DNA of 64,000 bases. Origin: Pseudomonadota bacterium (GTDB taxonomy: Bacteria > Desulfobacterota > Binatia > Binatales > Binataceae). Below, one piece after another: positions 29,503-46,995 of the stretch. The position numbers and the translations under genes were made by a program. Under the pieces are notes generated by a model. The model saw nothing but the letters and a program-made list of their open reading frames with translations, made no database searches and had not been told where the DNA came from. Positions within the stretch are counted from its first letter, which is position 1. Every line of letters starts with the position of its first letter. The stretch covers positions 1 through 64,000 of the forward strand of contig JAJPIF010000008.1 in NCBI GenBank assembly GCA_021324885.1, given 5' to 3'.

Positions 29503-29886
29503 TGCGGTGGCAAAGCACGGCACCACCCCGGCGAGCCGCGCTGCGGTAGGCGGGCCAGTCGGCTGCGCTCCAAAACCTTTTGGCCCGCGGCGGCTGCCTT
29601 GATTGAGACGAATGGGCAGGCCCGACGCAAAAATCCGTGGCCTCCCAGTGGACTTGCTCGACAATCCGGTCTACAAAAGCCGTGCAGAGCCAGCTGCGAA
29701 CAACGCCATTTCGAGAGAGTTGAAGAGGCTTCCCAACCGAGTCTGGCGGTATGCAACCGCATCTTCCAAGCGGCTTAAGATAATCGCCGCCGCCTCAATT
29801 GCAGCGGGATCGCAATCGAAATACGAGGTTGAGCCACCATTCGTAATACGAGGTGAGAGTTATCCTCGTGGTGCGAGGAGAAAAAC
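29503..29886. other. Intergenic region, 384 bp, upstream of the CheB-CheR hybrid gene
   Basis: No convincing gene. A frame starting at 29603 runs into the next gene out of phase and resembles nothing. The last 70 bp become AT-richer and hold the direct repeats listed separately, so the promoter of the large signalling gene is probably here. Confidence 0.45.
29820..29854 (+). repeat. Two direct AATACGAGGT repeats upstream of the CheB-CheR hybrid gene
   Basis: AATACGAGGT occurs at 29820-29829 and again at 29845-29854, 25 bp apart, with a related GTGCGAGGA at 29871-29879, which also serves as the ribosome binding site. Repeats spaced by about 2.5 helical turns just upstream of a start could be operator half-sites. 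No regulator can be named. Confidence 0.3.
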
Positions 29887-32800: not shown

Positions 32801-34149
32801 CGGTGCAATCACAGCCGCTCATCGGCAAGGGCGGAGAACTTGTTGGCGTGCTTTCCATTCATTTCCGCAACCCGCACGTCTTCTCCCAACGCGACCGGCA
32901 GTTGGGCGAACTTGTGGCCCGCCAGGCGGCCGATCTGATCGTCAGCCGCACCCAGCAGGAGAATATAACCCGGCTCAATGAGGCGCTCAGCCGCCGCACG
33001 ACCGAGCTGGAATTCAGCGAGCGACAGCTCTCACGCAAGGCCGCGGAACTGCTGGAACAGGATCGAAACAAGGAAGGGTTTCTGGCCGCGCTTGGTCATG
33101 AGCTGAGGAACCCGATGGCGGCGATACAGAACAGCCTCGAGGTGATCTCGGGCGGCGATGAGATGTCGCAGCGCGCGGTTGTAATCTTAAGGCGCCAGGT
33201 GCAGCACATGGCGCGGCTCATCGATGACCTGCTTGACGTCAGCCGGACAAACCTCGGCACGCTGCGCATCCAACCCGCGCCAGTCGAGCTTAATCCATTG
33301 GTGCAGGCGGCGCTCGAGGCGGCCAGGAGCGCGGCGGAGAGTAAAGGCCTTGGACTGAAAATTGAAATACCGGCAGATCCGATCCACGTTGAGGCCGATC
33401 CCGAGCGGCTTTCGCAAATTCTCGGCAATCTGTTGGGCAACGCGGTGAACTATACCGATACGGGTCGGATCACCGTCAGCGTGCGCACAACAGCCAGACA
33501 CGCATCGATATCCATCAAGGACACCGGTATTGGTGTGGATCCGCAGCACATCGCAGCCCTGTTCACGCCCTTTCAAACGGCGGAACCAAAGCGGGCCGGT
33601 GGATTGGGCCTGGGCCTGTCGCTGGTTAGACGGCTGGTGGAACTGCATGGAGGAACGGTGGAATTTGCCAGTGAAGGCCGCGGTCTGGGCAGCACGGTGA
33701 CGTTTACACTGCCGCTGGCCCGCTCTGCCGCATCAGCCGCGATACCAGCAGACTTCGTCATGCCGGCTCGGCGGCGCATCCTGGTGGTCGATGATCAACA
33801 CGACGTGGCGGACATGCTGGCCGCAGTGCTCCAGAAAATGGGACAGCAGGTTAAAGTGGCCTACGACGGTGAGACCGCCCTTGAAATCGCGTTTGAGCAG
33901 CGCCCTCAGATCGCGATTGTGGACGTGGCAATGCCGGGTATGAGCGGTGTGGAGCTGGCGCAACGTCTGCGCCAGAAGTTCCCCTCCCCGGCCGCTCTGA
34001 CCCTGGTCGCGTTCACCGGATACGCGCCGGATAATGCGGCTTTCAGGCCGTCCGATTTCGACCACCACCTGCTGAAACCGCCGACCGTGGAGCGGATTGC
34101 CGCGCTCCTCAATTCTCTGCTGGAGAAGGACCCGGAACAGGGCAAATGA
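29887..34149 (+). CDS. CheB-CheR-PAS-GAF hybrid histidine kinase with receiver
   Basis: One 1420-residue protein. Residues 12-195: CheB methylesterase with Ser22 (GASAGG), His49 (VHLAPD) and Asp142 (SGSGSDG), the full triad. About 210-490: CheR methyltransferase with the SAM motif VPGCATGEEAYTLAI (about 320) and NLLIYLDHELQ. About 645-725: heptad-like coiled coil, TNEELRAANEELQSLNEEY and onward. Then PAS (about 735-850), GAF (about 880-1040), HisKA with phospho-His1071 in LGHELRNPMAA, HATPase with DTGIGVDPQ and GLGLGLSLVRRLV, and a receiver with Asp1346 in IVDVAMPG. There is no chemoreceptor or flagellar gene nearby, so it probably works outside classical chemotaxis, as other CheB/CheR-kinase hybrids. 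GAGGAG lies seven bases before the ATG. Confidence 0.93.
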   Translation: MDDRHSVSEQSSTVPICGIGASAGGLEALQKFFAALPNDLGLAYVVIVHLAPDRKSELPAILARWTSMPVIQVGDSDKALLVANHVYVIAPDRKLEITDTSVGSSPFVQVRGQRAAIDLFFRSLATSRGDGFAVVLSGSGSDGAFGARAVKESGGLVLVQDPNEASHGDMPRAVIATGVADLILPIDQMVARLAELARTKEKLTPVVRAVEKNDVVDGDQEKALKAIFDLLKTRTGHDFSKYKRATVLRRLGRRMQLCHQATIVDYLEYLRAHVTEIQGLFEDLLISVTSFFRDPGAWEALRHQVISFLIENTESGEQLRAWVPGCATGEEAYTLAILFHEEFERRGTQRDLIIFGSDPDESSLQIARAGLYPHAIGADVSESRLERYFRAEGDRYRVVNRIRDQIVFALHNLLRDPPFSRQHLISCRNLLIYLDHELQEKAMGVFRYACQDRAFLFLGLSEAADERLFRIIDKKYRIYAIRDLDQGDRPALPEIESMPGMPAFKQPGLARAAPHRMAAELHMSALEEVAPPSLLVNDVWDVVHLSSSASHFFQQIGGPPAHKVTDLVRPELRDELHAVLHRAFEDLEPHLSPFVSVSFGGNSRRVAMLVQRRPQSATEESQVLVTFLDGGEAANDAPAGERESSDAAVQSLREKLRQAEERFDSIRDDYYVTNEELRAANEELQSLNEEYRSTTEELETSKEELQSINEELQTVNSELKGKLEEISRSHSDLENLMAASEVATLFLDLDARISRYTPQAKEIFNIRRRDLGRPIGDLTHNLEYDSLEEDVRRVLAASSSIEREVTSRDGKVFVERLRPYRMAPDGQLGGVVLTFIELTEIKRVEAALRESEHKLEAELKVMRLLHRMSMAVATAAGMQDALDQILATAIELLDADFGNVQLLEAGSDQLRLVAHREFLAPFLNTFQLIGLEDQTACTRALRTRSTVCIEDVTLDPEYAPYRAAAAEAGYRAVQSQPLIGKGGELVGVLSIHFRNPHVFSQRDRQLGELVARQAADLIVSRTQQENITRLNEALSRRTTELEFSERQLSRKAAELLEQDRNKEGFLAALGHELRNPMAAIQNSLEVISGGDEMSQRAVVILRRQVQHMARLIDDLLDVSRTNLGTLRIQPAPVELNPLVQAALEAARSAAESKGLGLKIEIPADPIHVEADPERLSQILGNLLGNAVNYTDTGRITVSVRTTARHASISIKDTGIGVDPQHIAALFTPFQTAEPKRAGGLGLGLSLVRRLVELHGGTVEFASEGRGLGSTVTFTLPLARSAASAAIPADFVMPARRRILVVDDQHDVADMLAAVLQKMGQQVKVAYDGETALEIAFEQRPQIAIVDVAMPGMSGVELAQRLRQKFPSPAALTLVAFTGYAPDNAAFRPSDFDHHLLKPPTVERIAALLNSLLEKDPEQGK

Positions 34150-34262
34150 GGCGTGAGCTGCGCAGGGATGAAGCGCGATGGAAAACCTTCAGCCCCGAGG
34201 GCGATTTTGCTTCGCCACGGCATCCGATCCAAAGGCCCGCTCGCGCCTGAACTTTGCCGGGT

Positions 34263-34949
34263 TCAATTGCCGTCGAGGAGCTCGACTTTGCCGCTTCGCA
34301 GCTTGTAGCGGGCGCCGACGATTTTGAGGCTGCCGTCACTCACTCGCTGGTTGAACAGCGGCGAGCGCTTGAGAATGTTGACCTGCTCGTCCACGTTCAG
34401 ATCGATCGCGTGGGAATCGAGATTTGCGGCGCGCTGCTTGCGCGCCCGGGCGACCGCCGGACAGATATTGCCGAAAATTTCGGGCAGTTGGGCCGCCGGT
34501 TTGGAACCACATTCGCCGACAGCCCCTTTGACCGCGCCGCAACTGTCATGGCCCAGCACCATAATCAGGTTGGTGCCCAGATGCTCAACCGCGTAGTCGA
34601 TGCTTTCAAGGCCCGCGCGCGTGACCGTATTGCCCGCGATGCGCACCACGAACAGACCGCCCAATCCTTGATCGAAAATCAACTCCGGCGGAACCCGCGA
34701 GTCGGAGCATGAAAGGATGACGGCGAACGGAGCCTGGCCGCCGGCCAGCTCCTCGCGCCTTTTTGCATGCAGCAGCGGCTGGTGCGTCGTGTCATGTTGG
34801 AAGCGCTGGTTGCCCGCCATCAGCCGCGACAAGGCCTCCGCCGGGCTGATCGCCGACGCGCCGGCTTCGGCGGCTACCAGGACCCGAGCGGCCCCGAAGA
34901 TAAAAAGGGCCGCCGTCATCAGCGCATACGTCAGACGTTTTTTGTACAT
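34263..34949 (-). CDS. Periplasmic beta-class carbonic anhydrase
   Basis: A 228-residue beta-carbonic anhydrase, which interconverts CO2 and bicarbonate. The zinc ligands are Cys81 (SCSDSRVPPE, with the Asp83-Arg85 dyad), His134 and Cys137 (LGHDSCGAVKG). Unlike most beta enzymes it has an export signal (MYKKRLTYALMTAALFIFGA then RVLVAAEA), so it should act in the periplasm. The ATG at 34949 has AAGGA eight bases upstream; upstream in-frame starts add residues without similarity. A SulP-type anion transporter lies 1.4 kb away on the same strand, with an M48-like gene between them on the other strand. Confidence 0.9.
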   Translation of the reverse strand: MYKKRLTYALMTAALFIFGAARVLVAAEAGASAISPAEALSRLMAGNQRFQHDTTHQPLLHAKRREELAGGQAPFAVILSCSDSRVPPELIFDQGLGGLFVVRIAGNTVTRAGLESIDYAVEHLGTNLIMVLGHDSCGAVKGAVGECGSKPAAQLPEIFGNICPAVARARKQRAANLDSHAIDLNVDEQVNILKRSPLFNQRVSDGSLKIVGARYKLRSGKVELLDGN

Positions 34950-35308
34950 TCCCAGTCCTTTCATGTATTGGCGGTATGAGGATTCCACACACCGGCTGCC
35001 TACCCATTGCCGCATCTAAGGCGCCCGCATGCGTTGCGGTAACACGAAGCCGCGGCGCTCGAAGAAAATGCCATCAGGACCGCTACTATCAGCGCTAAAC
35101 GCATGACCGTCCCTGAAAAAACCCGGCCGCCGCCAATGGTCCCACAATCAGTAGCCGAACGCTATGGACATTGGGTGGGTTAAAACGATTGACAATCGCA
35201 TGGGGCGGCGATTGAACGAAAGCGATTCGAACCGAGTTGAAACGGCCGAAGTACGCCACTGTATCGATAGATGCGCAATCGCGTTAAAGATTAGCGAGGG
35301 CTTTGTTC
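34950..35308. other. Divergent intergenic region, 359 bp
   Basis: It separates the carbonic anhydrase (minus) from the M48-like gene (plus). A TTGACA at 35189-35194 and repeated CGATTG motifs (about 35187, 35209, 35221) occur, with an inverted GATTG-a-CAATC at about 35187-35197. No convincing -10 element follows. I see no gene or RNA. Confidence 0.4.
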
Positions 35309-36220
35309 ATGGACGCCGCATCTCAGGAAGAACCGCAGACGCTTCTGGAAAGCGGCAGCGCACGGGTCAAACCGGGAGAGCCCTCGCCCTTGCTGCTTGA
35401 TGATTCGCGGCTCCTCGCTTATCGCCATCCGGCGGAACGCCGGATGCTGGCAGTTGCGGTTGGCGCGGTCGCAATCCTGGTTGTGGGGGGCTTTCTATAT
35501 CGCGAGCGGGATGTTTTGGTCGCCGCCGCCGCGCTCTATCTATCAATGGTCTTCACTTCGCTGCAGGCAAAAACCTACTACAGACTGCAAGGCGCGGAGG
35601 TAACTCCAACCCAGTTTCCGGCCATTTACGGAATCGTCGAGGAACTGCGGACGCGGTTTCGGGCGCCGCCCACCCGTGTGTTTGTCCTGCGCAAGGTCGG
35701 CTCCAGGGCGGAGGCGCTGGGATTGAGCGCTCCATATGTTGTCGTCCTGCCGCATATCGTGATTGACTCGCTGGAGCCTGAGGAACTGCGCTACGTGCTT
35801 GGCCAGGCAATGGGGCAAATCTGTTTCGGGCATACCCGCGTGGCGGTGCTCATGGGCGGCCAGGAATCGGCATTGCCAGCGGTGCTGTCCTGGGTCGCCT
35901 GGGTGCGCGACCTGATCTTTGCCGGATACTGGCGCGCGGCAACGATAAGTGAAGATCGCGCCGGGGTTCTAGCTTGTCGAAACGTGGCTCACGCCGTCCG
36001 CGCCCAGATCAAGCTTTCCGTCGGGACCAATCAGGCGCGCGAGGTAAGGACGGAAGACCTGAGCGAACAGGCCCTCAAAGTCAGCGGCGGTGTCACCCGC
36101 ATGCAGGCGGTGTTAATTCGCTGGCGAACTCCCATCCCTCCATTTATCGAACGGCTCCAGGCGATGGCCGATTGGGCGGGGCAGCCTGAAATTTTCGCTC
36201 AACACAAACGCAAGCGATGA
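35309..36220 (+). CDS. M48-like membrane protein lacking the HExxH zinc motif
   Basis: A 303-residue protein with two N-terminal membrane segments (about 46-64 and 68-85) and a domain laid out like M48 metallopeptidases (HtpX/Ste24 type): FPAIYGIVEELRTRFRAPPTRVFVL, a stretch ending PYVVVLPHIVIDSLEPEELRYVLGQAMGQICFGHT, and SEDRAGVLACRN, where the third zinc ligand region usually lies. In active enzymes the middle motif is HE-x-x-H-...-GH. Here it is QAMGQ-ICFGH, so both histidines and the glutamate are gone while the framing residues remain. It is therefore a probable pseudo-protease. GAGGG precedes ATG 35309. Confidence 0.7.
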   Translation: MDAASQEEPQTLLESGSARVKPGEPSPLLLDDSRLLAYRHPAERRMLAVAVGAVAILVVGGFLYRERDVLVAAAALYLSMVFTSLQAKTYYRLQGAEVTPTQFPAIYGIVEELRTRFRAPPTRVFVLRKVGSRAEALGLSAPYVVVLPHIVIDSLEPEELRYVLGQAMGQICFGHTRVAVLMGGQESALPAVLSWVAWVRDLIFAGYWRAATISEDRAGVLACRNVAHAVRAQIKLSVGTNQAREVRTEDLSEQALKVSGGVTRMQAVLIRWRTPIPPFIERLQAMADWAGQPEIFAQHKRKR

Positions 36221-36232
36221 GCCGAGATTAAC

Positions 36233-36298
36233 GGCCGGTATCGAGTCATCTTGTTCAACTTTGATTTGGCTGCGGCGCGGACAGGTTGAATACCGGCC
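36233..36298. terminator. Nested inverted repeat between convergent genes
   Basis: GGCCGGTAT (36233-36241) pairs with ATACCGGCC (36290-36298), and inside it TTCAAC pairs with GTTGAA. It lies between the M48-like gene and the SulP gene, which converge. The loop is long and there is no T-run, so terminator function is only possible. Confidence 0.3.
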
Positions 36299-36355
36299 TG
36301 TTGCATTCGAGGATTCAGCTTGAGGCGCGACCTTTCTCGAAACGCGTGGCCGCCC

Positions 36356-38083
36356 TCACGCGGGCGCGGCGCCCGGACTGATCGGCTTTCGATTTATTGC
36401 GGCCAGCGCTTCATGCAGGGAGTCGAAAATCCGATCCGAGCCAATAACGTCATACAGACGGTGGCGGCGCAGATCCGACAGCAGCGGCGTTTCCGCGTGG
36501 ACCAGCACGAACGATATGCCGCGACCGGCGAGTTCCCGCAGCAGATTGTGCAGCACTCGGGCGGCGGTATAGTCAATACTGGTTATCGCGCCCGCATCCA
36601 ATATCAAAAACCGCACCGGCGTGGGCGCCGCCTCGATCAGCGTCCTTATGTCGCCCGCGAAGCGCTCGGCATTGGCATAGAACAGGTTCGCTCCGAACTG
36701 AAATATCAAAAGTCCCGCTGCGCTGATCGCGCCGGGCACCGCCGGAATCGGCCGCCAATGTCCGTCGTGGTTCACCAGCACCGCCGTATGCGGGCGGTAG
36801 CTGTGGCGTACGTGGCGCAGCAATGAAAGCACCGCTGCCAACAGGAGTCCCTCTTCGACGCCGGCCAGTACCACCACCGCGGCCGTAATCAGGGCGAGCC
36901 GGAACTCGCCCGGGCTTTCGCTTCGAATTTCGCGCAAGCCGCGGAGGTCGACGAGTTCGACGGCAACGGTGAAAACGATCGCACCGAGCACGCATCTGGG
37001 CAGATATTGCAGCGGACCAGTCAGGAACAGCAGCACCACGCCGACCACTGCGGCAGTCGTGAGATGAGCCAACTGGCTGCGTCCGCCGGCGGCCTCCACC
37101 ATTGCGGTCTGGGTCGGACTGCCGTTGACCACGAAAGCGCCGCTCAATGCGGCTGCGGCATTGGCGGCCGCCAAGCCCACCAGGTCGGTGTTTTGGTCTG
37201 ATGCCTGATGATGCCGCCACGCATAGGCGCGAGCGGTCGCCGCGCTTTGCGAAACGATTACGAGGAAACACGATGCGGCAATCGGAAGGAGCGGCGGAAT
37301 TTCTCTGAAACCGACATCGGGAAAACCGAGCCGGGGCAGTCCGCCGTTGAAGTGCTGGATGACCGCGATGCCATGTCCGGGGAAATCAAACACGAAGCCG
37401 GCGACGATCGCACCGGCGACCGCGAAAAGTGGCCCGGGAAAACGCGGCGCCACTTTGCGCAAGACCACAACGATTAATACAACCGCCGCGGCCAGAGCAA
37501 AGGCCGGTACTTTTATCAGCGCAATGCCCCGAATGGCCTCGACGAGCTGTTCAGGCGTGCGGTTTGAGGTGATCGTAACCCCGGTCATCTCCCCCAGCAT
37601 CGCGATACCGACCTGCAAGCCGACGCCGGTGAGAAAGCCCACCAAGACGGTTTGCGACAGGAAATCGGCGAGGAATCCAAGCTCAAGAATCCGCGCCAGG
37701 AGCAGCAAGCCCGCCGTCAACAGCGCCACCATCCCAGCCAATGCAACGTAATGAGCACTGGCAATCGGCGCCATCCGGGAAAGTCCGCCGGCCAGAACCG
37801 CCGCTGTTGCCGAATCCGCCGCCACCACCAGGTAGCTTGAACAACCGAACACCGCGAACGCCACCGGCGGCAGCAGCAGTGTGTATAATCCGGTGATAAC
37901 AGGGGTGCCCGCGATTCGGGTATAGCCGAGCACCTGCGGAATGTTCATCGCGGCCAGCGTTAGCCCGGCTCGCGCATCGCCAATCGCATCGCCTCGGCCA
38001 GGCGAACCGACACCGCGCAACAGCAGGCGGTGGTTGCCGCTGCGCGGTCTTGGGCGGTTGAAATTCCCGGATTTCTCGTTCAA
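36356..38083 (-). CDS. SulP family inorganic anion transporter with STAS domain
   Basis: A 575-residue SLC26/SulP transporter: about 11-12 hydrophobic segments (35-430) with the family start ARAGLTLAAMNIPQVLGYTRIAGTPVITGLYT and the motif ATARAYAWRHHQASDQNTDLVGLAAANAAAALSGAFVVNGSPTQTA, then a cytoplasmic STAS domain (about 450-560) with ILDAGAITSIDYTA. Substrates in the family are sulfate, bicarbonate or chloride; the nearby periplasmic carbonic anhydrase makes bicarbonate plausible, but this is inference. The start is a TTG at 38083, seven bases after the PPK2 stop, so it is the third gene of a methyltransferase-PPK2-SulP unit. Confidence 0.87.
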   Translation of the reverse strand: MNEKSGNFNRPRPRSGNHRLLLRGVGSPGRGDAIGDARAGLTLAAMNIPQVLGYTRIAGTPVITGLYTLLLPPVAFAVFGCSSYLVVAADSATAAVLAGGLSRMAPIASAHYVALAGMVALLTAGLLLLARILELGFLADFLSQTVLVGFLTGVGLQVGIAMLGEMTGVTITSNRTPEQLVEAIRGIALIKVPAFALAAAVVLIVVVLRKVAPRFPGPLFAVAGAIVAGFVFDFPGHGIAVIQHFNGGLPRLGFPDVGFREIPPLLPIAASCFLVIVSQSAATARAYAWRHHQASDQNTDLVGLAAANAAAALSGAFVVNGSPTQTAMVEAAGGRSQLAHLTTAAVVGVVLLFLTGPLQYLPRCVLGAIVFTVAVELVDLRGLREIRSESPGEFRLALITAAVVVLAGVEEGLLLAAVLSLLRHVRHSYRPHTAVLVNHDGHWRPIPAVPGAISAAGLLIFQFGANLFYANAERFAGDIRTLIEAAPTPVRFLILDAGAITSIDYTAARVLHNLLRELAGRGISFVLVHAETPLLSDLRRHRLYDVIGSDRIFDSLHEALAAINRKPISPGAAPA

Positions 38084-38089
38084 AGCTGC

Positions 38090-38950
38090 CTACTTCGATT
38101 GCGGCTGCCCGGCTTGCCGCTTCCCTTCAGCCGCGGCGTGATACTTGCGGCGGATCTCCGCGATATCCACTTTCGCCGGCGGCAGCCTGAGCCTCATCCC
38201 CTCCATGGTATCGGCGACTATCTCGGAAACCGCGAGGTTACGGAACCATTTGTGATCCGACGGTATAACGTACCAGGGGGCATATTTGGTGCTGGTTTTC
38301 TCGATCGCTTCCTCGAACGCTTCGATATACGCGGGCCACAGTTCGCGCTCGGAATAATCGCTTTCACTGATCTTCCAGTGCCGCTGCGGATCCTCAAGCC
38401 GCTGCCTGAATCGCTCGAGCTGTTCTTCCGGGCTGATGTGCAGATAGAATTTTACAATCGCCGTACCGTTGTCCCACAGCATCTTCTCAAAATCGTTAAT
38501 CAATTCGTAGCGGCCCGACCAGACATCTTTGGGAACCAACTTATGCACTCGCACTACCAGCACATCCTCGTAGTGCGAGCGGTTAAAAATCACCACCTGC
38601 CCCCTGGCCGGTGCTCGCAGGTGAGCGCGCCACAGAAAGTCGTGCGCGGCTTCCTGGGCGTTGGGCTGCTTGAAGCCAAAAACCGATGTGCCCTGCGGAT
38701 TCATCGCGCTGAAGACATGGCGCACCACGCCGTCTTTGCCGCCCGCGTCCAGCGCCTGCAACACGATCAGCAGCGACCGGCTGCCGTCGGCGTAGAGCAG
38801 GTACTGCAAATTTGCGATGCGCGCGGCGTTTTTATTCAGTTCCGGCATGGCACCCTCATGTGATTCGTGCTTGTCCTTGAAGCCCGGATCGATTCCGGCC
38901 AGCCGCACCTTGCTGCCGGGCTCAACCAAAAATTTCCTGCCGTATTTCAT
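38090..38950 (-). CDS. Polyphosphate kinase 2 family protein
   Basis: A 286-residue PPK2-type kinase that uses polyphosphate to phosphorylate nucleotides (or the reverse). Walker A is ALDAGGKDG, the lid module contains NRSHYEDVLVVRVH, and SESDYSERELWPAYIEAFEEAI followed by APWYVIPSDHKWFRNLAVSEIV are family signatures. Length fits single-domain PPK2. AMP or ADP preference cannot be decided from what I see. The ATG at 38950 is where similarity begins; a frame upstream to 39013 adds 21 unrelated residues. Confidence 0.9.
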   Translation of the reverse strand: MKYGRKFLVEPGSKVRLAGIDPGFKDKHESHEGAMPELNKNAARIANLQYLLYADGSRSLLIVLQALDAGGKDGVVRHVFSAMNPQGTSVFGFKQPNAQEAAHDFLWRAHLRAPARGQVVIFNRSHYEDVLVVRVHKLVPKDVWSGRYELINDFEKMLWDNGTAIVKFYLHISPEEQLERFRQRLEDPQRHWKISESDYSERELWPAYIEAFEEAIEKTSTKYAPWYVIPSDHKWFRNLAVSEIVADTMEGMRLRLPPAKVDIAEIRRKYHAAAEGKRQAGQPQSK

Positions 38951-39013
38951 CCGCGCTTCACCCCCGATGCTGTCCGAGCGACAGTTGGGAAGTTGGTTGT
39001 GCCTCACTGACAC

Positions 39014-39838
39014 CTACTTGCGCGCAATCAGGAAACTTTGCACGCGACGGCCGGAGACGGCAACTTCGGAGAATCCCGCCTCCTTCGCCATCTCAACCAT
39101 GGAGGCCGTGCCATACGCGACTGCGGCCTCGGGATATCTTTCGTCGTCGACAAATGCATTTCCCGCCCGATGTGAAAACGTCCACGGTTTTCCCATTTCA
39201 ACCGACTCCATGCAGAAGAACGACATCACCGCCATTCCCTTGGGACGCAAGGCCCGGAACGACTGCTGCAGATAAAAGGCCACCTCATTTTCCAATAGAT
39301 GGGTGAACAAGGAGGTTGAAAATACAAAATCCCGGCTTTCAGGCTGCGCTATCGTGAAAAGCTCGCAATCGGGCGAAGACAATTCCCCGCTATGGTAGGT
39401 GGAGCTCTTATGCGGCGACAACGCAAAAACAAATTTCGGCGCGGGAAAATGCGCCCGGCAATAATCGATCATCTCGGGATCGATATCTATACCCAGGTAG
39501 GTGCCTGAGAAATAATCGGCCTTCAGATGCGCCGCGATCCTGCCGCAGCCGCATCCGATTTCCATAATATCGGCGCTAGCGGTGAGGTAGCCCCGGGCGA
39601 AGCACTCGATCCAGAACTGGCTTCCGATCTGCAAATGATGGGCGTGATTGTTGACGATTTTCGTGCCGACGCCCACGCGCACCCGCAAATGGTTGGGCGG
39701 CAGATCGCGGAATTCAGGGAAAGGCGCTCCCAGCAGGTTGGCGATCGCGTTGCCGGCAACCTTGAACACCGGATTGTAACTCAGCAACGAATTGGAGGGA
39801 TAAAGCTTGCGAACCAGTTTTATAATGCTTGCCGCCAC
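39014..39838 (-). CDS. Class I SAM-dependent methyltransferase
   Basis: A 274-residue methyltransferase: motif I IMEIGCGCGRIAAHL, then YLGIDIDPEMIDYCRAHFP with the ribose-binding Asp, DFVFSTSLFTHLLENEVAFYLQQSFRALRPKGMAVMSFFCME as motifs IV-VI. It resembles methyltransferases found in cell-surface and small-molecule biosynthesis loci; the substrate is unknown. GTG start with GGAG seven bases upstream. It is the first gene of the minus-strand run leading to PPK2 and SulP. Confidence 0.8.
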   Translation of the reverse strand: MAASIIKLVRKLYPSNSLLSYNPVFKVAGNAIANLLGAPFPEFRDLPPNHLRVRVGVGTKIVNNHAHHLQIGSQFWIECFARGYLTASADIMEIGCGCGRIAAHLKADYFSGTYLGIDIDPEMIDYCRAHFPAPKFVFALSPHKSSTYHSGELSSPDCELFTIAQPESRDFVFSTSLFTHLLENEVAFYLQQSFRALRPKGMAVMSFFCMESVEMGKPWTFSHRAGNAFVDDERYPEAAVAYGTASMVEMAKEAGFSEVAVSGRRVQSFLIARK

Positions 39839-40090
39839 GTAACGCTCCCGCCCGTTTTACGCCGGTTCATGCCGAGGGTTTATGCAGCTTCGCTCCGATC
39901 ACGTCAACCTGATCACTGCGACGCCGCACTTATGCTGACACCCGGGAACGGCCCTGCGTGGAGGCGCAGATGCCAGCCCCGCTATCAAGTAGAACCAAAG
40001 TCCAATTGTAATTCTGCGCGAATTGTCAAATGATATCGTGCCATTAGCTGAAGCGATCGATTTGGGGCGTCAAATGCAACGAGGAGACTT

Positions 40091-40885
40091 ATGAGATCGA
40101 GCATGCCGAAGGCAATTTACGCGCTTCTCGCACTGGCGCTCGCCGCGTGCGGCGGATCATCGTCCGGCAGTATGCCCACCCTGCCGACTGCGGGAACATT
40201 GACCGCAGGGGCAACGTCGTCGGCTGCGCAGGTACAAAATGCGCCTGCCGTCAGCAGCCCGCCTAGCCAGATTACCGTTTACCCGTTCGCCACCAACGCG
40301 GCCGAAGTGACGCTGAACCAGGGTATCGGCGCGCGGCTTTACCGCAATTACAGCGGTCAGGACCAGACCGCCGACCAGACGCAGCTCGCGGACAGCACCG
40401 CCCAGAATATCTGCGTGCAGGTCGCCAGCAGTCTGGCGAAAAACGGCTGGAACGCGGCCTGCCAGCCGCGCGGAACCGCGCTTAGCGGCAACAATGTGCT
40501 GATCATTGACGGCGCCTTCACCGATATCAGCGAAGGCAACCGGCTGCGGCGGATGGTGATCGGATTGGGCGCCGGAGCTTCCGTGATTGACACGCAGGTC
40601 AGCCTATACCAGTACTCCAACGGCAACTACACGCAACTGGTCACGTTCACCACCCATGCGGACAGCGGCAAGATGCCCGGCGCCGGAATCACCGGACCGG
40701 CGGGCGCGGCAGCCGGCGGCGCGGCGGCCGCAGCGTCGCTGGGCGTGAATCTCGCGGCGGGCGGGGTCAAGAGCGTCACCTCGTCCACAGCGTATCTGGC
40801 CCAGCAAAGCGCCAAACAGATCGTCGATCAAACCAACAACTACCTCTCGCAACAAGGCTGGAGCCCTGCGGCTGGCAGTTCCTGA
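40091..40885 (+). CDS. DUF4410-like lipoprotein
   Basis: A 264-residue lipoprotein: signal peptide MRSSMPKAIYALLALALAAC with lipobox LAAC, a serine/threonine-rich segment, then a domain with ITVYPFATNAAEVTLN and SLAKNGWNAACQPRG...NVLIIDGAFTDISEGNRLRRMVIGLGAGASVIDTQVSLYQY. This matches the DUF4410 pattern, in which GNRLRRMVIGLGAGAS is typical. A glycine/alanine-rich hydrophobic stretch (about 195-230) may be membrane-interacting. Function unknown. GAGGAG precedes the ATG. Convergent with the SDR gene. Confidence 0.75.
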   Translation: MRSSMPKAIYALLALALAACGGSSSGSMPTLPTAGTLTAGATSSAAQVQNAPAVSSPPSQITVYPFATNAAEVTLNQGIGARLYRNYSGQDQTADQTQLADSTAQNICVQVASSLAKNGWNAACQPRGTALSGNNVLIIDGAFTDISEGNRLRRMVIGLGAGASVIDTQVSLYQYSNGNYTQLVTFTTHADSGKMPGAGITGPAGAAAGGAAAAASLGVNLAAGGVKSVTSSTAYLAQQSAKQIVDQTNNYLSQQGWSPAAGSS

Positions 40886-41190
40886 TCGCAGCGCCGGGAC
40901 ACGGCCTCGGCCCCGGCCCGATTCAGTTCCATCTCCCTGAAAGGGGCCTTCAGAGGGTCCTTCAGAAGCGCGCATTTTGTCGGGGCCGGCCGTTCGGGCC
41001 CGGGAAAGGCGCGCGTCGTCCTCCTTTTATGACGACCAATTTCCGGCAAATCACGGCCGGCAAAGAAAACCCACGCAGCCAAGTCCAAATGTGCAGGCGC
41101 ATGCCTGCAGCCTGTGGCACGCTATTTTATCGGCGGTTTCCTTGAGCGGGAGAGAATTGTCGGTCAAAAGCCTCCCACTTGAGCCATCCC
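40886..41190. other. Intergenic region between convergent genes, 305 bp
   Basis: I see no gene or RNA. It holds a short imperfect tandem (AGGGGCCTTCAG then AGGGTCCTTCAG) at about 40938-40961. Confidence 0.45.
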
Positions 41191-41985
41191 TTACCATTCC
41201 GGACCCGTTCCCAGCAGCCCCGGCATTCCCGTGTTCGCGGTGATTCCACCGTCGGCCACGAAAAACGCGCCGGTGACATACGATGCTTCGTCGGACGCCA
41301 GGAACGCTACTACGTTCGCAATTTCCTGCGGGTCGGCCAAGCGACCCATCGGAATCGCTTCGCAGATCCGTTTCATCATCGTCCCGTCCCCGGAGTTGAG
41401 GATAGCCATCAGCGGCGGCGTCGCGGTTACGCCCGGGCAGACCGCATTGCATCTGATACCCTTGCGCGCATATTCGATAGCGGTGGCGCGCGTCAAGTTG
41501 ATCACGCCGGCCTTGATCGTGTTGTAGGCGCCCAGCATGTAATCCGCCGCCAGTCCGGAGATCGAGGCGGTATTGACGATCGCGCCGCGCTTGCGCGTCA
41601 CCATTTCGGCCAACGCGCACCTGGTGGCATACCAGTACGCGGTCAACCCAACGTCGATCGTTTTCTGCCATCCCTCCAGTGCGATCTCACCCACGTGGCC
41701 GGCGGCGGCGAAAACCGCGTTGTTGTGCAGCACGTCGAGGCGGCCGAACCGATCGATGGCAAACCTGATCATCGCCTCGACTTCCCTGGGCTGCCCGATA
41801 TCGGCATGGACGAACTCCGCGCTGCCGCCGCCGTCGCGAATCTGATCGACGATGCGCTTGCCGCCCTCATCGTTCAGATCGGCGACCACCACCGCCGCTC
41901 CCTCGCGCGCAAAGGTTTTGGCGGTTGCCGCCCCGATCCCCGACGCCGCGCCCGTAATCAGCGAAACCCTGTCCTTGAGCCTCAT
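41191..41985 (-). CDS. Short-chain dehydrogenase/reductase (SDR)
   Basis: A 264-residue classical SDR, an NAD(P)-dependent oxidoreductase. Cofactor motif TGAASGIG (11-18), VADLND (Asp favours NAD), HNNAVFAAAG (structural), the catalytic Ser in NTASISG and the Tyr-x-x-x-Lys in GAYNTIKAG, followed by CNAVCPGVTATP and a FFVADGGITAN end. Substrate unknown; such genes are common beside CoA-transferases and P450s. GGAGG precedes the ATG. It ends 134 bp before the tRNA-Arg on the other strand. Confidence 0.9.
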   Translation of the reverse strand: MRLKDRVSLITGAASGIGAATAKTFAREGAAVVVADLNDEGGKRIVDQIRDGGGSAEFVHADIGQPREVEAMIRFAIDRFGRLDVLHNNAVFAAAGHVGEIALEGWQKTIDVGLTAYWYATRCALAEMVTRKRGAIVNTASISGLAADYMLGAYNTIKAGVINLTRATAIEYARKGIRCNAVCPGVTATPPLMAILNSGDGTMMKRICEAIPMGRLADPQEIANVVAFLASDEASYVTGAFFVADGGITANTGMPGLLGTGPEW

Positions 41986-42119: not shown

Positions 42120-42196
42120 GCCCCCTTAGCTCAGATGGATAGAGCACAGGATTCCTAATCCTGGGGTCGCGCGTTCGAATCGCGCAGGGGGCGCCA
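42120..42196 (+). tRNA. tRNA-Arg (anticodon CCT)
   Basis: A full cloverleaf of 77 nt: acceptor GCCCCCT pairs with AGGGGGC, D stem GCTC/GAGC, anticodon stem CAGGA/TCCTG with loop TTCCTAA (anticodon CCT, reading AGG), T arm GCGCG-TTCGAAT-CGCGC, discriminator G, encoded CCA. Its 3' half (from 42153) is repeated exactly at 44714-44757, so the gene is the integration site of the element described here and remains intact at the left end. Confidence 0.97.
42153..42196 (+). repeat. attL-like repeat inside tRNA-Arg
   Basis: 44 bases from the anticodon loop to the CCA, identical to 44714-44757. Extending left, AGGA also matches with one mismatch between (T here, C at the right copy). Confidence 0.9.
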
Positions 42197-42230
42197 ATAA
42201 AATCAAGGGGTTTTTCCACTAATTCACCTT

Positions 42231-42990
42231 TTAGAGGCCGTCCTGACAACCAAGCTGACAACCATCAGGAAGCAAATCAACCTCAAAAATTGTTTTCATC
42301 TTTTCAGCGGCGTCAACCAGAACTTCCGGGAACACATGCGAGTAGATGTCCATCGTGACGCTTATCTGGGAATGCCGCAAAATCTCCATCACCGTTCTGG
42401 GATGGACCCCGAGGGCGAGAAGAATTGATGCGGCACTGTGGCGAAGGTCATGGAAACGAATATTGGGGAGGCCCCCTTTTTCAACATTGATTTGAACTCT
42501 CGTGTAAGGTTGCGAGGCTCGATTGGAGTTCCGATTCGGGTTGTGAAAACAAGTCCCGACTCCTTCCAGACCTCGCCCGCCAGCAACCGTTCGTGCGATT
42601 GGCGAATTTGGTGACTTCGAAGCGCAGCTACAACCGGGCCGGGCAACGGTATTGGATGACGACCGCGACTCGTCTTTGGTTCACTGAGTTGAAGCTTGCC
42701 CTCGATGCGTCCCAGCGAGTGCGTGACCGTCAACGTCCCTGCTTCTAAATCAATATCGTTCCAGCCCAAGCCCAACGCTTCGCCCCTTCGTAAGCCAATC
42801 GCGAGTGCCGCCGAATAAAGTGCTTCGAGTCTGTTATTTTTCGCAATGTTGATGAAAACCTTGGCCTCCGCGATTGAAAAGACCGGGAATGTCTTGCGCT
42901 TTACCTTGGGGCTATCTATGAGCTGCGCGAACGTTGCGTGACACCAGCGCCCATTTCATCGCCTGTCCTAAAGCTCGCGATGGCCGGGTG
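42231..42990 (-). pseudogene. Phage-type tyrosine recombinase (integrase), frameshifted and N-terminally truncated
   Basis: Reassembled from three frames on the minus strand. The 5' part reads RALGQAMKWALVSRNV, then near 42925 it must shift to continue AQLIDSPKVKRKTFPVFSIAEAK and on to LRRGEALGLGWNDIDLEAG (catalytic Arg I region). Near 42475, at a run of G, a second shift is needed to reach FHDLRHSAAS (His-x-x-Arg), LRHSQISVTMDIYSHV (His and the catalytic Tyr), ending at TAA 42233. So all catalytic residues are present in the DNA, but the product cannot be made without two frameshifts, and the N-terminal arm-binding domain is missing. Sequence error in homopolymers cannot be excluded. Confidence 0.85.
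42244..42264 (-). repeat. Left paired TGACAACCA repeat (possible integrase arm site)
   Basis: TGACAACCA twice in direct orientation at 42244 and 42256 (12-bp period), 48 bp inside the left att core and within the recombinase 3' coding end. A near-identical pair is at 44588-44608. Confidence 0.6.
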
Positions 42991-43059
42991 ATCTATAGAA
43001 CGAGCGTCCAGACGGACGCCTGCTCACAAAGATGAGATGCACAACACTGTTCACCCTGC

Positions 43060-43156
43060 GTTTAAACACTGGCCCTAAGCCATTTGCTAAGCAATAGCTA
43101 TTTATCTAGCCTCTGCGTTTAAACAGTATGTATTCTCAGGCCCTCCGCGTTTAAAC
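43060..43156 (-). repeat. Three GTTTAAACGC-containing repeats
   Basis: The 8-bp palindrome GTTTAAAC occurs at 43060-43067, 43117-43124 and 43149-43156. Read on the minus strand each has the wider context AGTGTTTAAACGC or ACTGTTTAAACGC followed by G/A-rich bases. A fourth copy, GTTTAAACGC on the plus strand, is at 44255-44262. The two rightmost copies lie in the 3' end of the 101-residue reading frame. Confidence 0.7.
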
Positions 43157-43407
43157 ACTGAGTATAGACCACCTATACCCACACTGGATATCCAGATGCT
43201 TGTGACATGTTGATGAATCGTTTGTTCGTAAACCCAATTAACATCCTGTCCCTTCAACGTCCCGGTTCTCATGCGCAGCGTATAGGAAACATTCACGAGT
43301 TCGCGCTCAAGAATCTGAGCTTGGCACATTGCGCCCGCGTACATTGCCATCACGTTGCGGATAGCCTCCGATGCTTTGCCAAGAACATTTGAGGTGCTCT
43401 GTTCCAT
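43102..43407 (-). CDS. Hypothetical protein, 101 residues (element cargo)
   Basis: Starts MEQSTSNVLGKASEAIRNVMAMYAG and looks helical; no family recognised. GAGGT lies about eight bases before the ATG, which favours a real gene. The last 20 residues are encoded by two copies of the GTTTAAAC repeat, so the native C-terminus may have been altered by repeat insertion. It follows the zinc-ribbon gene on the same strand with about 90 bp between. Confidence 0.5.
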   Translation of the reverse strand: MEQSTSNVLGKASEAIRNVMAMYAGAMCQAQILERELVNVSYTLRMRTGTLKGQDVNWVYEQTIHQHVTSIWISSVGIGGLYSVFKRGGPENTYCLNAEAR

Positions 43408-43496
43408 AACGCTACCTCAGCGCCCGTATGTATCGTAAACCGCTCGAAGTAATCGGGACGGACGATACCCGATTGTTGACTAATAACCTTTTCCGC

Positions 43497-43952
43497 TTAG
43501 GGCAGATATCCTTTGCGGCGAGCCTGCTCCACAAGGTCTGTAAACAAATGGCCATCCATAACTGGTGCATACTGCCCATACTTCTTTTCTTCTTTGGCTT
43601 CCGGCGAATCGCCATTGACTATATGCCAATATGGCAGCCAGAAATCAGGGGCATCCTTGTCCTCAGCTTTAAGAACAACAAGAAAGGGCAAGAATTCAAC
43701 CACGCTACCGTCCTCTGTTTCCCAAGTCGTCCGTTTCTCTTTCTCCGGGAGAAATGCGTCCTGCACTCGAAACTCCCACCGCCCCGCACCGAGGCCAAAC
43801 TCGGGAACAACAATGAGCATCATGGTGGAGGCCTCACATTTGGGACAAGGACGGCTCTCTGACTTTGAGACCTCGCGAAGTGCATCCAAGAGTGTCGCAG
43901 GCCAAGACCTCTCGTCGCATTTGGGGCACAAATAGTAACGCTGAGTCGCCAT
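43497..43952 (-). CDS. Zinc-ribbon hypothetical protein, 151 residues (element cargo)
   Basis: The N-terminus carries two CPxC pairs, YLCPKCDERSWPATLLDALREVSKSESRPCPKCEAST, about 25 residues apart, a treble-clef or zinc-ribbon site. The rest is mixed alpha/beta with WEFRVQDAFLP and FLPFLVVLKAEDKDAPDFWLPYWHIVNGD, then a helical end. GGAGGT is seven bases before the ATG, the best ribosome binding site in the element. I do not recognise the family. Nucleic-acid binding is possible from the ribbon, but nothing shows it. Confidence 0.7.
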   Translation of the reverse strand: MATQRYYLCPKCDERSWPATLLDALREVSKSESRPCPKCEASTMMLIVVPEFGLGAGRWEFRVQDAFLPEKEKRTTWETEDGSVVEFLPFLVVLKAEDKDAPDFWLPYWHIVNGDSPEAKEEKKYGQYAPVMDGHLFTDLVEQARRKGYLP

Positions 43953-44587
43953 ACGGTTGACCTCCTCGGTTCCTCCAAAGTTCAGTCCGGCGCGCTCTCG
44001 GAACGCGGAAAAGTTACGCTCTGGTGATAGTTATACGTCGAATCTGGATAAGATTCAATGCATCAATCCGCGTCAGTTCTCCGTCGAATCCACCCAGAAT
44101 AAAATTGGGTGGGTCCCCCTGCGGAAAACGAAAGCTGTCTAATAGAGAGGAAGTTCGAATTCGGGGAAATTATGGCTGGCCGCCGTACCGAGGTGGTCAG
44201 GGCTGGAACGTGACTGCGGTTTTTCTGGCAGAAAAAGTTCGTCGCCAGCTCGCCGTTTAAACGCCCAGTGCCCGGCTTGGTCTTCCGGCCGGTTGCAGCC
44301 GTCCCACTGTCCGGCGCTCCGGGCCGGGGTGGTCTGCCAATGGGCCTCGGAGGACCACGAGCTTTGTTCGCCTCGCCCGAGGTGATTGGGAGGCGCTGTG
44401 GCCGGTCTAGAGACCTGAAATTCGTGATGCCTGTCTTGGGTCGCATCCAGAGCCTCCTCCAGCTGGTCCGGCCAGAGGCCGAGAGTGACCAAACGCGGTA
44501 TGCCCGGCGACCTCGCGGCCTGAGCAGCATGATGCCGATGGGCCCGGGCTGAGGGTTCCCATAGGCAGTGCTCGCGGCCTGAATTTT
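43953..44587. other. Element right part, no supported gene
   Basis: Frames across this stretch are arginine/proline-rich or short. A CCACCCA/TGGGTGG hairpin lies at about 44090-44112 and one GTTTAAAC palindrome at 44255. Composition changes from AT-richer (to about 44150) to GC-rich (after about 44260), which may mark an internal junction. Confidence 0.4.
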
Positions 44588-44608
44588 TGACAACCACGCT
44601 GACAACCA
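44588..44608 (-). repeat. Right paired TGACAACCA repeat (possible integrase arm site)
   Basis: TGACAACCA at 44588 and 44600, the same 12-bp period as the left pair; the 21-bp blocks differ at one base. The right block ends 105 bp before the att core. Confidence 0.6.
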
Positions 44609-44713
44609 AGACGGCGGGCGTGATGGAAATAGCGAGGCTGGACGGAAAACCCCGGTTGGAAAAGCGTAAACTGCACAAGGACAGAGGACTAGGCGGAAGC
44701 CGACCGGTAGGAC

Positions 44714-44757
44714 TCCTAATCCTGGGGTCGCGCGTTCGAATCGCGCAGGGGGCGCCA
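44714..44757 (+). repeat. attR-like repeat, partial tRNA-Arg copy
   Basis: Exact copy of tRNA positions from the anticodon loop to CCA; the bases before it do not form a tRNA 5' half, so this is not a second tRNA gene but the right end of the element. Confidence 0.9.
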
Positions 44758-44834
44758 GTCCGCCCGAAGTCATTGAGCTTTTGGCGCCAGGCTGTCCGAG
44801 CGCTTTGCCTTTCGTATCGGTCGGTTCGCTCCCG

Positions 44835-44897: not shown

Positions 44898-45935
44898 TCA
44901 GAACTGGTTGATCACGCTGATGCCGACGTTTTCGAAATTCGACATCTTCTGGATTACGTCGAATGCCTTTTCCAAGGGGATCGTCTCCGTGATCAGGTTG
45001 CGCGGGGCGAGGCGGCCGCGCTCGACCATGTCGAGCATCGCCGGATAGCGATACGACTGCATCGCCAGCGAGCCGGTGAACCGGATCTCCTTGAACACGA
45101 TCTGATCCACCGGCAGCGCGACTTCGCCCTTTTCTCCCTGCGTGGTAAGGCCGATCTGGACGTGGCGGCCGCGTTTGGCCAGGCTCATCACGGCGTTGCG
45201 GCAGGTCGTCGCGATGCCGAGCGCGTCGACGCTGACGTTGGCGCCGCCATGGGTCAGATCGATCACCGCTTTAACCGGGTCGGTCTTTTTGCCGTTGACC
45301 ACGTCCGACGCGCCGACCTTTTTCGCCAGTTCCAGCTTGCGATCGTCGAGATCGACGGCGATCACCCGCGCGCCAAGCGCCGATGCGATCTGGATCGCCG
45401 ACAGCCCGACCCCGCCGCATCCATAGACCACCACCGACTCGTCGGCCTTGACCTGTCCCTGGTCCATGATGCCGTGAAACGCCGTGACGTAGCGGCATCC
45501 CATCGAGGCCGCTTCGGCAAATCCGACCGACTCGGGGAGCGGGACGGCGTTGATGTCGGCGCGGTTCAGACGCGCATAGCGGGCGTATCCGCCACCGCTC
45601 ATGGCTTTGGGACACAGATTGGAATGGCCGGCACGGCAGTCCTCGCACACGCCGCATGCCTGGGCGAGTGGCACCACCACGCGATCGCCCGGTTTGAGCT
45701 TGGTGACTTCCTTGCCAACCTCCTCGACGACGCCGGCGAATTCATGCCCAAGCACCATCGGCAGGCGCTGCGAGAACCCGATCCAGGTCCAGTCGCCCTG
45801 CCACAGATGCCAGTCGGAGCGGCAGATCCCACTGCCTTCAACGCGCACGATCGCTCCGTCCGGACGCAATGCCGGGTTGGGCATCTCCTTTACTTCCATC
45901 GGCTGGCCGACGGCTTCCATCACCAAAGCTTTCAT
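44898..45935 (-). CDS. Zinc-dependent alcohol dehydrogenase (MDR family), copy 2
   Basis: A 345-residue medium-chain dehydrogenase. Catalytic zinc ligands Cys38 (GICRSDWHLW), His64-Glu65 (GHEFAG) and a Cys near 150 (AASMGCRYVTAFHG); structural zinc cysteines 94, 97, 100 and 108 (CGVCEDCRAGHSNLC). The Rossmann motif is GCGGVGLSAIQIA with VIAVDLDDRKLELA (Asp, NAD preference). Substrate unknown. GGAGG precedes the ATG. It lies 25 bp after a close paralogue and ends in a strong terminator. Confidence 0.9.
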   Translation of the reverse strand: MKALVMEAVGQPMEVKEMPNPALRPDGAIVRVEGSGICRSDWHLWQGDWTWIGFSQRLPMVLGHEFAGVVEEVGKEVTKLKPGDRVVVPLAQACGVCEDCRAGHSNLCPKAMSGGGYARYARLNRADINAVPLPESVGFAEAASMGCRYVTAFHGIMDQGQVKADESVVVYGCGGVGLSAIQIASALGARVIAVDLDDRKLELAKKVGASDVVNGKKTDPVKAVIDLTHGGANVSVDALGIATTCRNAVMSLAKRGRHVQIGLTTQGEKGEVALPVDQIVFKEIRFTGSLAMQSYRYPAMLDMVERGRLAPRNLITETIPLEKAFDVIQKMSNFENVGISVINQF

Positions 45936-45960
45936 GACTGATCCTCCAGGCGTACGGGAT

Positions 45961-46995
45961 TTAGAACTGGTTGATTACGCTGATACCGACGTTTTCGAAA
46001 CTCGACATCTGCTCGATCACGTCGAAGGCCTTTTCCAGCGGAATGGTTTCGGTGATGAGCTTTTTGGGTTCCAGTCGGCCGCGTTCGACCATGCTGAGCA
46101 TCGCCGGATAACGGAACGATTGCAGCGCCAGCGAGCCGGTGAACTGGATTTCCTTGAAGACAATTTGATCGACCGGCAGCGCCACCTCGCCTTTTTCCTT
46201 CTGGGTGGTGAGTCCGATCTGGACGTGGCGGCCGCGCTTGCGCAGGCTCATCACGGCGTTGCGGCAGGTGGTCGCAATACCCAGGGCGTCGATGCTGACA
46301 TGGGCGCCGCCATGCGTCAGTTCCGTCACTGCTTTGACCGGATCGGTCTTCCTGGCATTGACCACGTCAGCGGCGCCGACTTTCTTTGCCAGTTCCAGCT
46401 TGCGGTCGTCGAGATCGACAGCGATCACCCGCGCACCCACCGCAGACGCGATCTGCACGGCTGACAGTCCCACGCCGCCGCATCCGTAAACCACCACGGA
46501 TTCGTCGGCTTTGACCTGGCCCTGGTCCAGCACGCCGTGAAAAGCGGTGACATAGCGGCATCCCATCGAAGACGCTTCCACGAAATCGACTTCGTCGGGC
46601 AGCGGCACGTTGTTGAAGTCGGCGTGATTCAGAAGACCATAGCGGGCGTAGCCGCCGGCGCCGGCGCCGAAGCATTGGTTGGAATGGCCGGTGCGGCAGT
46701 CCTCGCACACGCCGCATCCCTGGGACAACGGCACGACCACGCGCGTGCCCGGCTTAAGCGTCTTGACCTCCTTGCCGACTTCTTCGACCACACCCGCGAA
46801 TTCGTGGCCGAGGATGGTCGGCGTCGGCATCTGGAAACCAACCCAGGTCCAGTCGCCCTGCCATACGTGCCAGTCCGAGCGGCAGATACCGCTGGCTTCG
46901 ACGCGCACGACCGCGCCGTCGGGAGGGCATTTGGGTTCGGGCCAGTTTTTGACCGTCATCGGCTTGCCGACTTCTTCCATCACCAATGCTTTCAT
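45961..46995 (-). CDS. Zinc-dependent alcohol dehydrogenase (MDR family), copy 1
   Basis: A 344-residue paralogue of the next gene, nearly identical through the catalytic and Rossmann regions (GICRSDWHVWQGDWTW, GHEFAG, CGVCEDCRTGHSNQC, GCGGVGLSAVQIA) and at the C-terminus. The two differ most around residues 12-25 and 54-60 and at 110-140, which include substrate-pocket loops. GAGGT precedes the ATG. The pair forms one transcript, probably a tandem duplication. Confidence 0.9.
   Translation of the reverse strand: MKALVMEEVGKPMTVKNWPEPKCPPDGAVVRVEASGICRSDWHVWQGDWTWVGFQMPTPTILGHEFAGVVEEVGKEVKTLKPGTRVVVPLSQGCGVCEDCRTGHSNQCFGAGAGGYARYGLLNHADFNNVPLPDEVDFVEASSMGCRYVTAFHGVLDQGQVKADESVVVYGCGGVGLSAVQIASAVGARVIAVDLDDRKLELAKKVGAADVVNARKTDPVKAVTELTHGGAHVSIDALGIATTCRNAVMSLRKRGRHVQIGLTTQKEKGEVALPVDQIVFKEIQFTGSLALQSFRYPAMLSMVERGRLEPKKLITETIPLEKAFDVIEQMSSFENVGISVINQF

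Follow-up and report, generated by a model that had tools for sequence, protein, structure and literature searches.

The locus at tRNA-Arg(CCT)

In the window (the whole 64,000-nucleotide stretch of DNA that was analysed), an intact tRNA-Arg(CCT) gene is followed by a small element bounded by direct repeats of the tRNA 3′ part, with a broken tyrosine recombinase gene and two small open reading frames (ORFs) between the repeats. The features are as follows, in the coordinates of the window:

42120-42196, plus strand: intact tRNA-Arg(CCT), its 3′ part forming the left attachment copy (ARAGORN; Rfam RF00005, 66.3 bits)
42148-42196, plus strand: left core (attL), 49-bp repeat with the last 44 bp exact (repeat comparison)
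42231-42977, minus strand: pseudogene of a tyrosine recombinase that retains just the C-terminal catalytic half and has two or more frameshifts (PHROGs, PF00589, BLAST)
42244-42264, plus strand: putative arm-type tandem of the left end, TGACAACCA-AGC-TGACAACCA; it shares sequence with the final codons of the integrase (...DGCQLGCQDGL*)
43060-43156, no strand: three GTTTAAAC palindromes (43060, 43117, 43149), with a fourth at 44255 (motif count)
43102-43407, minus strand: 101-aa ORF without relatives in the searches; GAGGT precedes the ATG by 6 nt
43497-43952, minus strand: 151-aa ORF whose N-terminal part has a CPxC...CPxC motif resembling a zinc ribbon, without relatives in the searches; GGAGG precedes the ATG by 8 nt
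44588-44608, plus strand: putative arm-type tandem of the right end, TGACAACCA-CGC-TGACAACCA, some 125 bp ahead of the right core
44709-44757, plus strand: right core (attR), tRNA 3′ part without the 5′ half, 48 of 49 positions identical to the left core
44758-44799, plus strand: flank after the element, like the sequence right after tRNA-Arg(CCT) cores elsewhere in the family (83% over 35 bp with genome G010)

The two cores, which differ by a single mismatch, contain an exact 44-bp stretch (42153-42196 and 44714-44757), and an exact repeat of this length inside 12 kb excludes chance. ARAGORN reads the left copy as part of a complete tRNA (Arg, anticodon CCT), the Rfam call being slightly shorter (42120-42193), and calls no tRNA at the right copy. 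No other copies of the tRNA-Arg(CCT) core are present in the window. From core to core the unit measures 2561 bp, with a GC content of 53.6% vs 60.2% and 62.3% for 5 kb on either side and a shift in base composition near 44200 within the element. The first-pass annotation had described an exact 44-bp repeat of the tRNA 3′ half, a right copy lacking the 5′ half and an element of about 2.6 kb; all of this holds, with the repeat now extended to 49 bp.

The recombinase gene adjoins the tRNA on the minus strand and was assigned to phrog_1 integrase in PHROGs (1.8e-10), while PF00589 matches it in two pieces lying in different frames (2.3e-10 and 5.2e-7), in agreement with the earlier claim of a tyrosine recombinase remnant beside the tRNA. 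The two pieces are divided by a frame change at a AAAAAGGGGG run near 42470. Compared with an open, related integrase on contig C8 of the same genome, BLAST matches to the remnant begin at about residue 161 of 382 and homology in another frame can be followed by eye from about residue 146, with no match to the N-terminal part (approximately 145 residues) anywhere in the element. The integrases of the class closest to the remnant are 42-52% identical and distant ones down to about 34%, while the best relative in genome_contigs, from an Acidimicrobiaceae MAG, is 49% identical; the fragment had no match among viral contigs. Judged from its reading frames the gene cannot yield a working enzyme. 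Where a genomic island would carry an intact tyrosine integrase between both copies there is a pseudogene with frameshifts and no N-terminal half, so the element is a remnant rather than an active member of that class.

The two ORFs share the strand of the integrase gene, upstream of it, and a Shine-Dalgarno-like sequence precedes each start codon; they may be passengers kept by the element. Neither protein has relatives in Pfam, PADLOC or PHROGs, nor convincing ones in 148 genomes of the class, in which the 151-aa protein gave one weak match (3.4e-4) in a frame with stops. Nothing usable was found for the 151-aa protein in NCBIfam (an FmdB zinc-ribbon match fell far under the cut-off), phages, plasmids, genome_contigs or viral contigs, and nothing for the 101-aa protein in NCBIfam or viral contigs. 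AlphaFold models reached a pLDDT of 64 for the 151-aa protein and 46 for the 101-aa protein, with nothing significant in a Foldseek search of the PDB with the former. Transfer or phage genes left no trace in the element in searches of Pfam, PADLOC and PHROGs. The GTTTAAAC palindrome has nine copies in the whole 4.53-Mb genome, four of them inside the element, and three copies have a longer context in common within about 100 bp.

To the right of the element, sequence like 44758-44799 runs in some genomes of the family into tandem CTTTGGC copies, as at the left end of a further element, and because of this the flank may be what an older element left behind rather than the plain flank of an empty site. 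Two adjoining zinc alcohol dehydrogenase genes follow (44898-46995), an apparent tandem duplication with 300-nt segments 84% and 76% identical, and the pair is also present in both congeners.

Tandem sites at the element ends

A 9-bp repeat, TGACAACCAnnnTGACAACCA, occurs in tandem 48 bp past the left core and about 125 bp ahead of the right core, reading TGACAACCAAGCTGACAACCA at 42244 and TGACAACCACGCTGACAACCA at 44588 with a period of 12; shuffled sequences contained zero such tandem repeats. The placement is as expected for integrase arm-type sites, a function that we infer from position and conservation. Across the 148 class genomes the pattern TGACARCCAnnnTGACARCCA has 26 occurrences in 15 genomes and its reversed form none. 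The AA version (TGACAACCA) is confined to both ends of this element, with all other copies being AG, such that relatives have TGACAGCCA where the window element has TGACAACCAnnnTGACAACCA. By sequence, this one base change common to all four repeats binds both ends into one element, and it suggests that the sites evolved together with the enzyme. The TGACAGCCA tandem lies just past the stop codon of several related class integrases, most of whose loci lie at tRNA 3′ ends (Lys, Glu, Ser, SeC, Phe or Arg). Since TGACAGCCA tandems follow related integrases at various tRNAs, the arm sequence seems to track the integrase lineage and the core the tRNA.

The same genome (G000) holds a 13.1-kb prophage-like element at tRNA-Arg(TCG) on contig C8 (about 28460-41650, L102), with 48-bp core repeats, the open integrase related to the window remnant, a primase/polymerase (Prim-Pol), a tape measure protein and a head protease match. 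It carries TGACAGCCA arm tandems at both ends, which differ from those of the window by one base per repeat, and its core differs from the window core. It is possible that this element is a relative of the ancestor of the window element.

Cores and flanks of tRNA-Arg(CCT) were gathered across the class (148 genomes), and many left ends were found to have a tandem repeat of period 11 or 12 that begins approximately 41-68 bp past the core, its sequence varying by element (e.g. GTGTCCA, TGACAGCCA, TGTAGGCGT). At right ends, with two mismatches allowed, a tandem was present for 14 of 21 cores (the window's own included) in an 8-base range around 126 bp ahead of the core, vs 3.3% of the positions used as controls at these loci, a comparison that overstates certainty somewhat as the range was fixed after viewing the data. 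At up to one mismatch the figures were 11 of 21 vs 0.6% of control positions.

Insertions at tRNA-Arg(CCT) across the class

By DNA search the window element is absent from 37 relatives. The tRNA-Arg(CCT) core pattern was found in 105 of the 148 class genomes, most of the compared genomes being drafts in many contigs, and mostly as a single copy; two or more matches occur in 21 genomes, in at least 15 of which the extra copy lacks the tRNA 5′ half. Where a second core lies on the same contig its spacing ranges from about 0.7 to 15 kb. According to the first-pass annotation, a lack of insertion polymorphism together with constant spacing would have spoken against an inserted element; neither was found, with the element missing from the 37 relatives, single cores prevailing, spacing variable and, in genome G133, an apparently empty and an occupied site side by side (see below). 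Judged by its cores, tRNA-Arg(CCT) is a recurrent target in the class, the scan having covered this tRNA alone.

Units of 0.7-1.8 kb occur at tRNA-Arg(CCT) in relatives, and a toxin-antitoxin pair is the cargo of five units of 0.7-1.4 kb (G029, G133, G004). Genome G029 has eight cores on two contigs (C166 and C213; loci L010 and L039), in arrays, where the shortest units between adjoining cores measure 0.74-0.77 kb; its units of about 0.75 kb encode HicAB twice and a ParE/Unstab_antitox pair. The 1.1-kb unit of G133 (loci L035 and L036) holds TacA1/GNAT genes only and the unit of G004 DUF1902/HicA. No integrase (PF00589) was found on the contigs carrying these five units, and a clear arm tandem was not found in the G133 unit. 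Two cores were rejected as a unit in G051, which has a whole-tRNA duplication, and in G024, where the second core is degenerate and lacks arm sites.

In G133, a MAG, the occupied contig starts within the tRNA and continues with the TacA/GNAT unit, a core and the flank, while on a second contig the whole tRNA leads directly into the same flank, with 183 of 185 bases identical. The pair resembles an occupied and an empty site in a mixed population; it could also be due to a strain mixture or a binning error. At the window locus, no empty site flanked by the same genes was found in the genus (two congeners), where none is demonstrable since synteny is broken, both congeners having tRNA-Arg(CCT) and the alcohol dehydrogenase pair on different contigs.

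Origin of the element and its place among known systems

The element is probably, and in our view with good confidence, the remnant of an integrative element targeted to tRNA-Arg(CCT), internally deleted, immobile by itself and with attL and attR intact, akin to a cis-mobilizable element (CIME). This is in keeping with the tRNA-targeted, decayed element proposed at first pass, to which the core repeat, the tandem sites at both ends, the broken integrase and the absence from relatives all point. A tyrosine integrase would once have inserted the element into the 3′ part of tRNA-Arg(CCT), with the core and the 9-bp tandem arm sites at either side as its binding sites; once the element is circular, the core would have a tandem site on each flank. 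Strand exchange within the core would have duplicated the tRNA 3′ end, leaving the tRNA whole at the left and a displaced copy at the right end. The integrase would later have lost its N-terminal half and gained frameshifts; further internal sequence probably disappeared along with it, which would account for the small size. What remains would be two small genes and both ends, with no movement by an enzyme of its own. As no longer ancestor of the window element was found among the class genomes, the internal deletion is read from the missing half of the integrase; that ancestor could equally have been a prophage like the C8 element.

The first-pass annotation had left two explanations side by side, a remnant after deletion and a minimal element mobilised in trans. 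The truncated and frameshifted integrase favours the former, whereas the intact ends, including the arm-type sites, and the integrase-less units in the class keep the latter possible. On the trans explanation the element would still be mobile, its excision and insertion being carried out by an integrase from another locus, and its cargo would be the two small genes. The near-identity of both cores and arm sites is consistent with this, as are the toxin-antitoxin units of 0.7-1.4 kb at the same tRNA in G133, G029 and G004, the G133 contig pair and the presence in the same genome of an open related integrase whose arm sites are so nearly the same. Nevertheless we consider it unlikely for the window element, as the pseudogene shows the element to have once encoded an enzyme for itself, the C8 integrase sits at tRNA-Arg(TCG) with a differing core and so may not recombine the window core, this genome's assembly carries no sign of excision and the cargo does not match any recognised toxin-antitoxin pair. 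For the group of small units, trans mobilisation is plausible.

Two further explanations address the ends. Since relatives have multi-core arrays and the composition shifts near 44200, recombination inside a tandem array could have joined a left and a right end from two different elements, yet the TGACAACCA variant, otherwise absent from the class, stands in all four repeats at both ends, which makes such a junction highly improbable. An assembly artefact or a partly duplicated tRNA, with no integrase involved, would fit the repeat alone; it is contradicted by the integrase remnant beside the tRNA, by arm sites whose distances at each end are typical of the family and by the lower GC inside the element, and we give it practically no credence. 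The deletion remnant stays the preferred reading, with trans mobilisation as its main competitor. A wider proposal, rather doubtful at present, is that the window element belongs to a class-wide tRNA-Arg(CCT) system of small cassettes, many with toxin-antitoxin cargo only, that keep their arm sites and would be moved in trans by the integrases of other elements.

Like a CIME (PMC5704250), the window element keeps attL and attR (cores and putative arm tandems at both ends), is small and has lost its integration gene, here a dead integrase. It differs in that neither transfer genes nor an ICE or IME ancestor were identified, and because no ICE or IME origin is demonstrated its membership is only partial. 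Tandem accretion is known for CIMEs (PMC5704250), while tandem cores are found here only in relatives. With tRNA-targeted islands as mapped by Islander (PMC4383910) it has in common the intact tRNA, a 3′ fragment displaced to the far end in unchanged orientation and an integrase gene beside the tRNA. Islander, however, requires an integrase gene (PMC4383910), which in the window is a pseudogene and which the mini-units of relatives lack altogether, so integrase-less units would escape tools of this type. The earlier remark that 2.6 kb is far below the usual island stands against the Islander size peaks of 13.6 and 39.9 kb (PMC4383910), although not against the still smaller units at the same tRNA in relatives. 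Tycheposons, as summarised in the extract of PMC10872708 used here, have a tRNA border, a tyrosine recombinase and 4-200 kb of cargo, from which the window element departs in its size and broken recombinase.

The additive flexible genomic islands (fGIs) of Methylophilaceae, with recurring tRNA-Lys 3′ repeats and sizes of 330 bp-42 kb (PMC10872708, in the same extract), are like the class-wide units in their variable number of tRNA 3′ ends and small, mostly unknown cargo; arm-type sites are not described in that extract. The integrase-less arrays in relatives resemble such islands, several tandem repeats with cargo being found in G029, but the window holds a single unit and the toxin-antitoxin-only units belong to relatives. 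The window element is an ordinary kind of remnant and its setting may matter more, namely repeated hits on tRNA-Arg(CCT) in one class with the smallest units consisting of a toxin-antitoxin pair alone. Tandem arm sites at a fixed distance from the core would offer a route, from sequence alone, to such units and to the integrase that serves them. If mobilised in trans, these units would work like CALINs, integron cassette arrays without an integrase (PMC11389934), the enzyme coming from elsewhere, although the window element is not a member, its sites being tRNA 3′ ends with arm sites rather than attC. If this is true, trans-moved cassettes would depend on the integrases of other elements as CALIN cassettes depend on integron integrases.
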